A stretch of 64,000 nucleotides of DNA from an uncultured Flavobacteriales bacterium (GTDB lineage Bacteria; Bacteroidota; Bacteroidia; Flavobacteriales_E; Vicingaceae), in contig CAJXMH010000005.1 of the NCBI GenBank assembly GCA_913056345.1, positions 62,001 to 126,000 on the forward strand, in the 5' to 3' direction. Shown piece by piece: positions 2,707 to 42,240 of the stretch; the first letter of the stretch is position 1, and each line of letters opens with the position of its first letter. The translations under genes and the position numbers were made by a program. The notes below the pieces were generated by a model that was given only the letters and a program-made list of their open reading frames with translations, was not told the DNA's origin and did no database searches.

Positions 2707-2720
2707 AACACAAAGCTCTA

Positions 2721-2751
2721 TTTGCTTAATTTAAACTGTTTTGTATATTTG
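2721..2751 (+). promoter_or_regulatory. Bacteroidota-type promoter of small-RNA copy A
   Basis: TTTG at 2721-2724, a 19-base spacer, then TATATTTG at 2744-2751, an exact match to the TAnnTTTG -7 element known from Bacteroidota. Transcription should start around 2756-2758. It lies in an otherwise gene-free interval and points at the structured RNA candidate. Confidence 0.7.
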
Positions 2752-2756
2752 ACTTA

Positions 2757-2875
2757 ATTGTTTTTTCCATCACAGTTTGTATGGTTTCTTTGCAGCAATG
2801 CAATTTTATGAGAAGTCGTTTTCACCATACAGATTACCATACAAACAAGCCTCGCCACTCGGCGAGGTTTTTTTT
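2757..2875 (+). ncRNA. small structured RNA candidate, copy A
   Basis: About 119 nt from the predicted start to the end of the T-run. The outer stem is GTTTGTATGGT (2775-2785) with ACCATACAAAC (2836-2846), 11 perfect pairs. Inside are a TTGCA/TGCAA hairpin with a GCAA loop (2790-2803) and a GAGAA/TTTTC hairpin with a GTCG loop (2810-2823). The molecule ends in an intrinsic terminator. A second ACCATACAGA at 2824-2833 could compete for the same 5' arm. Copy B, 180 bp downstream, has the same promoter spacing, outer stem, GAGAA/TTTTC hairpin and terminator, and the two outer stems differ by a compensatory pair (TTTG/CAAA versus TCTG/CAGA). I cannot assign a known family; a clade-specific Rfam motif such as Flavo-1 is possible but untested. 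Confidence 0.7.
2850..2875 (+). terminator. intrinsic terminator of small-RNA copy A
   Basis: CCTCGCC (2850-2856), loop ACTC, GGCGAGG (2861-2867), then eight T residues (2868-2875). Confidence 0.85.
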
Positions 2876-2893
2876 GCCTAAATTCAAGAAACT

Positions 2894-2939
2894 TTAACAG
2901 CTGTTAAGTTTGTAGAATATGATTATTTCTTTAATATTG
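2894..2939 (+). promoter_or_regulatory. promoter of small-RNA copy B with an abutting palindrome
   Basis: TTTG at 2909-2912, a 19-base spacer, then TAATATTG at 2932-2939 (7 of 8 to TAnnTTTG), the same geometry as the copy A promoter. A perfect 14-bp palindrome, TTAACAGCTGTTAA (2894-2907), lies one base upstream of the TTTG. It could be an operator; copy A has no equivalent. Confidence 0.6.
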
Positions 2940-2944
2940 TATCT

Positions 2945-3053
2945 CCTTGCTAACACATCTGTATGGTTTTCAACGTTAGCTTGAGAAAGTCGGTTTTCAT
3001 AATTAAGTTTTGATTATACCATACAGAGAGCCCCGCACCCGCGGGGTTTTTTT
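2945..3053 (+). ncRNA. small structured RNA candidate, copy B
   Basis: About 109 nt. The outer stem is TCTGTATGGT (2958-2967) with ACCATACAGA (3018-3027), 10 perfect pairs. Inside is GAGAA/TTTTC with loop AGTCGG (2983-2998), matching the internal hairpin of copy A. An intrinsic terminator follows the outer stem within three bases. No reading frame with a plausible start fits the region. Apart from the stem and hairpin blocks, the sequence is clearly diverged from copy A, so this is an old duplication held by structure rather than a recent repeat. Function unknown. Confidence 0.7.
3031..3053 (+). terminator. intrinsic terminator of small-RNA copy B
   Basis: CCCCGC (3031-3036), loop ACCC, GCGGGG (3041-3046), then seven T residues. 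Confidence 0.85.
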
Positions 3054-3099
3054 ATGCCCTAAACCCTGAACAAAATTCTTAAATGATACTTTTACAGAC

Positions 3100-4356
3100 A
3101 TGAACTCACTAGCAGATGTAAAAATTCACATTGTAGGAGCAGGTATAAGTGGTTTGATTGCTGCAATTCAGTTAGAAGAAGAAGGGTTTTCTCCTATAAT
3201 TTGGGAACAAAACCAAGAAGTAGGTGGCCGCTTGCAAACTGAACTAATCGATGGCTATCAATTGGATCGAGGATTTCAGGTTTTACTTGACGAATATCCG
3301 ATGGCACAGAAATACCTTGATTTAGAGGCGCTACAATTGCAGAAGTTTTTACCTGGTGCTTATATCCATCATGAACAAGACCGCTCTAAGTGGGGTGATT
3401 TGAGTCGTGATCTGCAATTTTGGAGCACACCCTTTTTACTTTCAATTGCTAAGCCTAAGGATTTTTTACTCTTGAACCGCTTAAGGTCAGCCTTAAAGAA
3501 AAAGGACCTACAAAGCATATTTGAGCATAAACCCCAAACCACCCTTGATTATTTAGTGGAGTATGGCTTCAGTGATTCACTAATTAAATACTTTTTAGCG
3601 CCTTTTTATAGGGGCATTTTTCTGGAAAATGAGCTTGAAACCTCAAGCCGAATGTTTGAGTTTGTCTTTAAAATGTTTGCCAAAGGCAATGCGTGTATAC
3701 CGCGTGAAGGCATCCAAGCAATTGCTTTGCAACTAAAAGAGCGTTTGAAGAAAACTACCATTCACACAGGAGTTAGAATCGATCAAATTCAAAACCAGAA
3801 GATTATTATTGAAGGAGTTGAAGAAATAGTAGCAGAATATGTGATCGTGGCTACTGAGGCCACTAAGCTAATTGCAAACCTGAGCGGAGAAGAGCAAGCC
3901 TGGCGTAGCTGCGACAACCTTTACTTCGAAGTTGAGAAAAGGGGCTTTCAAGAACCCTTGATCGGCTTGGTAGGAGACAGAGATAAGTTGGTCAATAACT
4001 ATCATTTTCCGCAAAGTCTAAAACCGGCTAGTAAGGGCAGTAAAGAATTGCTAAGTGTAACGGTAGTTGACCGCAAAGGATTAAGTGATGATGCGCTTTA
4101 TGAGCAAGTTGAAAGAGAAGTGAAACAAGTTCTTGGCTTACGACCACTTAGGCTCTTAAAACACTACCGTATTCCCAAGGCCTTACCCGACGTTAGCAAT
4201 ATGCAATACGACTATTCTTATACCACCGCTCAATTAACGCCCAGTATTTACTTAGCAGGAGACCAACAGCTCAATGCATCTTTAAATGCAGCCATGATCA
4301 GCGGTGAGCGGGTGGCAGAAGCAGTAAGCAACCGGATAAAAGGAATCTCTACTTGA
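3100..4356 (+). CDS. FAD-dependent oxidoreductase of the amine oxidase/phytoene desaturase superfamily
   Basis: 418 residues. The N-terminus holds an FAD-binding Rossmann motif (IVGAGISGLIAAIQLEEEG, about residues 10-28), followed by the family signature EVGGRLQTE, where the GGR contacts FAD. The C-terminus has the second FAD-binding stretch (IYLAGDQQLNASLNAAMISG). There is no signal peptide, so the enzyme is probably cytoplasmic. This family oxidises amines, carotenoid precursors or protoporphyrinogen; the substrate cannot be read from the sequence. It lies between the small-RNA terminator and a Cys-rich hypothetical gene whose likely start is 35 bp downstream. Confidence 0.85.
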   Translation: MNSLADVKIHIVGAGISGLIAAIQLEEEGFSPIIWEQNQEVGGRLQTELIDGYQLDRGFQVLLDEYPMAQKYLDLEALQLQKFLPGAYIHHEQDRSKWGDLSRDLQFWSTPFLLSIAKPKDFLLLNRLRSALKKKDLQSIFEHKPQTTLDYLVEYGFSDSLIKYFLAPFYRGIFLENELETSSRMFEFVFKMFAKGNACIPREGIQAIALQLKERLKKTTIHTGVRIDQIQNQKIIIEGVEEIVAEYVIVATEATKLIANLSGEEQAWRSCDNLYFEVEKRGFQEPLIGLVGDRDKLVNNYHFPQSLKPASKGSKELLSVTVVDRKGLSDDALYEQVEREVKQVLGLRPLRLLKHYRIPKALPDVSNMQYDYSYTTAQLTPSIYLAGDQQLNASLNAAMISGERVAEAVSNRIKGIST

Positions 4357-41981: not shown

Positions 41982-41989
41982 TACCTTTG
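41982..41989 (+). promoter_or_regulatory. -7 element of the cobalamin-riboswitch operon
   Basis: TACCTTTG, a perfect TAnnTTTG, just upstream of the riboswitch. A convincing TTTG at the usual spacing was not found. Confidence 0.55.
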
Positions 41990-41993
41990 CCTT

Positions 41994-42170
41994 GTTATTG
42001 GTTTTCTTGAATGCGTTCGAGAAATTAAAAGGGAATCCGATGAGATTTCGGAACTGTTCCCGCAGCTGTAAGCTCTAATAACCTTTTTGTACACCTTATG
42101 CCACTGTTGCAGTTGTTAGCGACGGGAAGGCCACAAAAAGGGGAGTAAGTCAGAAGACCTGCCGATAATG
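41994..42170 (+). promoter_or_regulatory. cobalamin riboswitch
   Basis: Conserved landmarks occur in order: AAAAGGGAATCCGATGAGAT, GGAACTGTTCCCGCAGCTGT, GCCACTG (42100-42106), GGGAAGG (42124-42130) and the B12-box AGTCAGAAGACCTGCC (42148-42163). Adenosyl- or methylcobalamin binding would lower expression of the B12-uptake genes downstream. In Bacteroidota these switches mostly act on translation; no intrinsic terminator is seen here. Confidence 0.93.
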
Positions 42171-42240
42171 AAAATGCTTTCGGGACAAAAGCGAAGAGTA
42201 TTATTCTATCCTAGGCGGATTCTACCCTTTGTGATTTCCC

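Follow-up and report, generated by a model that had tools for sequence, protein, structure and literature searches.

The window analysed here is a 64-kb stretch (G000:C5:62001-126000) of a 2.9 Mb Bacteroidota genome, placed in the class Bacteroidia by its relatives. Near the start of the window, the gene for a TPR-repeat protein (1423–2706, + strand), which itself lies 3′ of gyrA, is separated from a flavin amine oxidase gene beginning at 3100 by a gap at 2707–3099, and no ORF of 50 amino acids or more lies wholly inside this gap. An earlier note on this DNA had claimed two tandem structured small RNAs here, and these were recovered independently: a covariance model built from other genomes matches exactly two places, designated c1 and c2, both on the + strand and both upstream of the oxidase gene. 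From the model matches and the folds, the putative transcripts would be about 120 nt for c1 (2756–2875) and about 110 nt for c2 (2944–3053). The TPR-repeat protein gene, as judged from gene neighbourhoods, is the conserved upstream neighbour in each of the four genomes where the sRNA was found.

These four genomes were identified in several ways. When 60 relatives were searched at the DNA level, only G004 gave a clear match (71% identical). Because this homologue is again 3′ of the TPR gene, the sequence following that gene was read in 30 loci, which revealed a homologue after the TPR gene in G007 and another about 0.5 kb further on in G018. All three of these genomes belong to the family of the window genome (their records are named as Flavobacteriales or Bacteroidia MAGs: SAT43, Co_bin.160 and UBA5081), and each has a single copy of the homologue, in every case downstream of this TPR gene. 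A first covariance model, built from c2 and the three single-copy homologues with c1 left out of the training, matches c1 in its own genome at an E-value of 7e-9. A second, built from G004, G007 and G018 only, matches the window at 2766–2875 (57.3 bits, E 1.3e-10) and at 2949–3054 (52.7 bits, E 1.4e-9), with the next-best place in the 64-kb window at E 0.06; its alignment was drawn from a model that included c2, whose part in that source could slightly affect the three-row alignment, though not the sequences.

When the first model was run on the 46 genomes of the family and order, it yielded no further convincing member, and the same was true of 395 class genomes and of 14 near relatives searched with laxer filters; the model search scores only part of the first-pass candidates, and diverged members may be missed. 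Weak matches in G022, G014, G006, G021 and G036 and in the class genomes L086–L088 were rejected as terminators, as overlaps with coding sequence or because they have no core. A scan of 84,980 species with the exact core pattern returned the same three genomes together with matches that the model does not recognise, and there was no core match in plasmids. A viral origin was also rejected, four viral contigs with a loose form of the pattern failing to match the model. The TPR-protein tree puts the four genomes inside one 12-member clade without showing them as each other's closest relatives, and the patchy distribution within this clade is thus likely to reflect either loss in some members or poor resolution of the tree.

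Both copies had been described as having a promoter of TTTG-N19-TAnnTTTG geometry. This holds for c1 (2721–2751), where the −33 element TTTG (2721–2724) is followed after 19 nt by the −7 box TATATTTG (2744–2751), but not fully for c2 (2909–2939), in which TTTG (2909–2912) and a spacer of 19 nt lead to TAATATTG (2932–2939), one base off TAnnTTTG. With this one-base departure in the −7 box of c2, a promoter of the −33/−7 type is present just upstream of all five homologues, with spacings of 18–21 nt. The full-consensus motif occurs three times in the 64 kb, where 3.3 occurrences are expected by chance, so the promoter gains its weight from where it stands, immediately upstream of c1, and from the similar promoters at the five homologues. 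In Flavobacterium the −7 box is located at −12 to −5 (PMC9723704), and transcript starts were placed by setting the −7 boxes according to this rule. The starts inferred from the −7 box positions are A2756 for c1 and T2944 for c2, whilst the RNA would begin at the first C of CCAUCAC in G007 and one base before CCAUCAC in G018. Read in this way, c1 and c2 would most likely each be transcribed as a free-standing gene, with its own sigma-A-type promoter and its own terminator.

The outer stem that the earlier note had drawn around GTATGGT/ACCATAC can be read directly from the sequence of both copies. This stem, P1, is formed in c1 by GTTTGTATGGT (2775–2785) and ACCATACAAAC (2836–2846), and in c2 by TCTGTATGGT (2958–2967) and ACCATACAGA (3018–3027), the arms being assigned from covariation. 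The strong intrinsic terminator claimed for each copy is also present, at 2847–2875 in c1 and about 3029–3053 in c2 as judged by folding, and directly adjoins P1. Fold z-scores against shuffled controls were −7.7 (c1) and −6.4 (c2) with the terminators, and −4.4 (c1) and −3.7 (c2) without them. The compensatory change between the stems of c1 and c2 is there as well, one pair differing between them, U-A (TTTG/CAAA) versus C-G (TCTG/CAGA). The conservation of structure proposed from the two copies is upheld by the homologues from the three other genomes, with which P1 covaries at four pairs. In the alignment of the five sequences P1 comprises 10 pairs, formed in 98% of the cells, and two-sided changes are seen at four of the ten, three of them U-A to C-G and one G-C to A-U. 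When P1 and the terminator were taken together, none of 500 shuffles came up to the real alignment in percentage paired, covariation score or number of doubly changed pairs, and a shift of the partner by 1–3 columns left only 30–48% paired; terminator pairs make up three of the seven changed pairs in this control, and an alignment of five sequences is a small one. We also observed that c1 holds ACCATAC twice (2824–2830 and 2836–2842), giving the 5′ arm of P1 two possible partners. A similar alternative, CACCATA, exists in G004 and may allow two conformations.

The strongest conservation lies outside the P1 pairs, in the 5′ segment CCAUCAC, in GAGAAAGWCG and in UUUUCACCAUAAU(A)AAGUUUUGAUUA. The latter two sit inside P1 throughout the family, and GAGAAAGWCG is nearly invariant, although with only five family sequences known, part of this conservation may reflect recent ancestry. 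CCATCAC is identical in c1 (2767–2773), G004, G007 and G018, where it is predicted to be unpaired at 0.96–1.0 (0.96 in c1), and is absent from c2; AAGUUUUGAUUA is predicted to be partly unpaired (0.38–0.72). The single-copy homologues carry every conserved segment. In c1, where the conserved core (2810–2836) aligns as GAGAAGTCG-TTTTCACCATA-CA-GATTA without the AAGTTTT of the family, CCAUCAC and CACC are kept, as is GAUUA, and AAGUUUU is lost. In c2, where the core (2983–3016) is GAGAAAGTCG-GTTTTCATAATT-AAGTTTTGATTA with its final 12 nt at 3005–3016, AAGUUUUGAUUA is kept exactly, and both CCAUCAC and CACC (ACC) are lost. Thus the loops of the two copies do differ, as the earlier note had stated, partly through the loss of different conserved segments, but the most conserved letters of the family are nonetheless to be found inside P1 and in the 5′ leader. 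These patterns suggest that each copy retained a different conserved segment of a single ancestral gene duplicated in this genome. Following the differential loss, the copies have probably split or changed their targets, in a putative division of labour.

An inner hairpin, GAGAA/TTTTC, had been described for both copies. Folding predicts it for both c1 and c2, whereas the predictions for the G004, G007 and G018 homologues mostly place UUUUC(ACC) in a different helix, chiefly with an upstream GGUGG-like strand. There was no two-sided change in the hairpin across the five aligned sequences, and GAGAAAGWCG/UUUUC is therefore counted as conserved in sequence, its form as a hairpin being unproven. 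Separately, a 16-mer of c2, AATTAAGTTTTGATTA, recurs at the stop codon of an exbD-looking gene, just before an intrinsic terminator (L002:1501-1555, G000:C3:84210-84264), a recurrence that may be due to chance or to a shared RNA signal. This place (G000:C3:84210, L002) was rejected as a third copy, since what it has in common with c2 is only AATTAAGTTTTGATTA and a terminator.

We think it rather probable that c1 and c2 represent an independently transcribed, Hfq-independent base-pairing sRNA, duplicated here, the copies of which have split or changed their targets, where both transcription and pairing are inferred. An ancestral single sRNA gene would have been duplicated in this genome to give c1 and c2. 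With P1 abutting the terminator hairpin, the RNA would display the 5′-terminal CCAUCAC and, inside P1, GAGAAAGWCG and UUUUCACCAUAAUAAAGUUUUGAUUA, and one or more of the displayed segments would pair with target mRNAs near their translation starts. Pairing would occur without Hfq, as for GibS and FopS in Bacteroides; indeed, Hfq was not found in the four sRNA-bearing genomes by a search that was positive in five of 14 control genomes. Trans-acting sRNAs whose single-stranded seeds pair at start codons, without obvious Hfq, are established in the Bacteroidota (PMC7366714, PMC11697453).

Like GibS and FopS of Bacteroides thetaiotaomicron (PMC7366714, PMC11697453), c1 and c2 would be intergenic Bacteroidota sRNAs with their own promoter, an intrinsic terminator, a conserved 5′ seed predicted to be single-stranded and no obvious Hfq. 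The resemblance extends to the way in which paralogues keep one seed and lose another, GibS having R1 and R2 and FopS having R1 only. However, GibS and FopS are largely unstructured 5′ of the terminator, in contrast to the covarying 10-bp outer stem and inner core seen here. The structure of FopS was deposited in Rfam according to that literature (PMC7366714, PMC11697453); c1 and c2 are without a match to any family of Rfam 15, a release that may or may not include FopS. Rfp18 of Flavobacterium psychrophilum and Flavobacterium columnare (PMC9723704), compared by description only, is also a strongly folded, conserved intergenic flavobacterial sRNA that is thought to pair, but differs in being described as pairing via a third stem-loop and as having metalloprotease targets.

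The best target candidate was comM. AAGTTTTGATTA forms part of a perfect 14-nt complementarity over the comM start in G007, and the predicted comM duplex energies are −17 to −18 kcal/mol in G007 (L096) and G018 (L106), which belong to the same genus, and −7 to −9 kcal/mol in G000, the genome of the window, and in G004. As a target, comM is not supported, the duplex being weak in G000 and G004 and about as strong as that of G007 in G006, where no sRNA copy was found. Pairing of the sRNA with neighbouring genes, including the TPR region, was no better than that of shuffled segments.

The earlier note knew of no family name that fits with certainty and proposed a comparison with Rfam; once run, this comparison found no known family, with no match to Rfam 15 at the gathering threshold. 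Over the whole window, Rfam 15 gave only a cobalamin riboswitch elsewhere (RF00174, 115 bits, 41982–42180, + strand), and the sRNA stretch, taken to an E-value limit of 10, gave only matches well under their gathering scores, the best at E of about 0.02. Of these kinds, MicC, isrJ and amino-acid leaders were rejected because their scores fall far short of the gathering thresholds and derive mostly from the terminator. The copies therefore look like a narrowly distributed new family of a known general kind, the regulatory sRNAs. They share with 6S-Flavo (RF01685, PMC2864571) the form of a stand-alone structured Bacteroidota RNA with a closing stem, and the phylum, the presence of a promoter and the length of the closing stem would all suit a diverged 6S RNA, an RNA polymerase mimic. 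Such an identity is nevertheless barely conceivable, as no 6S match was obtained at c1 or c2 even at E 10, the copies stay below the RF01685 gathering cut-off, and G004 has, besides the sRNA, a distinct 6S-Flavo-like RNA elsewhere that is common to G014, G006, G036 and G026. The latter RNA is conserved at L110 (G004:C35:42070-42216), L111, L112, L116 and L117, and consists of GTAAACTCAAC ... GGGGTTTACTC with the closing stem CCCGTGCA/TGTGCGGG, followed by a T run. It reaches 27–34 bits against RF01685, far under the cut-off of 85, and the 6S RNA of this Bacteroidia family seems to escape the Rfam model.

Another reading is that c1 and c2 bind a protein, for titration or enzyme control, and that the conserved segments are binding sites and not antisense seeds. 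The very high conservation of the whole core, partly paired letters included, would fit with this, as would the near invariance of GAGAAAGWCG, the only partly unpaired state of AAGUUUUGAUUA, the failure to find a conserved mRNA target amongst comM and the neighbouring genes, and the presence of AAGTTTTGATTA where another gene of the same genome ends, just ahead of a terminator. We regard it as possible but rather unlikely, because c1 and c2 have lost different segments, which would hardly be tolerable for one protein site, and because pairing sRNAs typically have a conserved 5′ end that is single-stranded. A small ORF, or a dual-function RNA, has a slim chance. Although a frame of 16–20 codons starts at an AUG within or close to P1 and ends at the TGA of AAGTTTTGATTA (read by eye, MVFNVSLRKSVFIIKF in c2, MVVAVEIQRESRFHHNKF in G004, MGWIILTEKDAFTIIKF in G007 and, from another AUG, MFTWGGEILTEKDVFTIIKF in G018), the frame in which the conserved core is read differs between copies, and even the two same-genus copies are set apart by a 1-nt difference; c1 is without the stop, and in three of the four the AUG lies inside the covarying stem. 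The reading frames are thus not kept, which makes a peptide unlikely. Little credence can likewise be given to a cis element, whether a transcription attenuator or riboswitch acting on the amine oxidase gene downstream or mere terminators of the TPR gene. Terminators do precede the oxidase gene (3100), and the first one to follow the TPR gene here belongs to c1, but each copy has its own promoter. Moreover, different genes lie downstream in the other genomes, and in G004, G007 and G018 a separate terminator ends the TPR gene ahead of the sRNA promoter, two points that make a cis element unlikely.

Returning to a duplicated base-pairing sRNA, we consider the tandem pair with its complementary losses to be the interesting part, as a hypothesis based on one genome and two segments. 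It is possible, if somewhat doubtful, that tandem duplication of an sRNA with two segments was followed by a division of its pairing segments between the copies, a natural case of subfunctionalisation in which single-copy relatives with both segments persist in sister genomes. Outside Flavobacterium and the Bacteroides of the gut, few sRNAs of the Bacteroidota have been characterised, and c1 and c2 fall under no Rfam family. The position downstream of the gyrA-adjacent TPR gene provides an anchor for finding further members. Single copies with all segments in three genomes can be set against the duplicated pair here in a clean comparison, and the complementary losses predict which targets each copy should keep.
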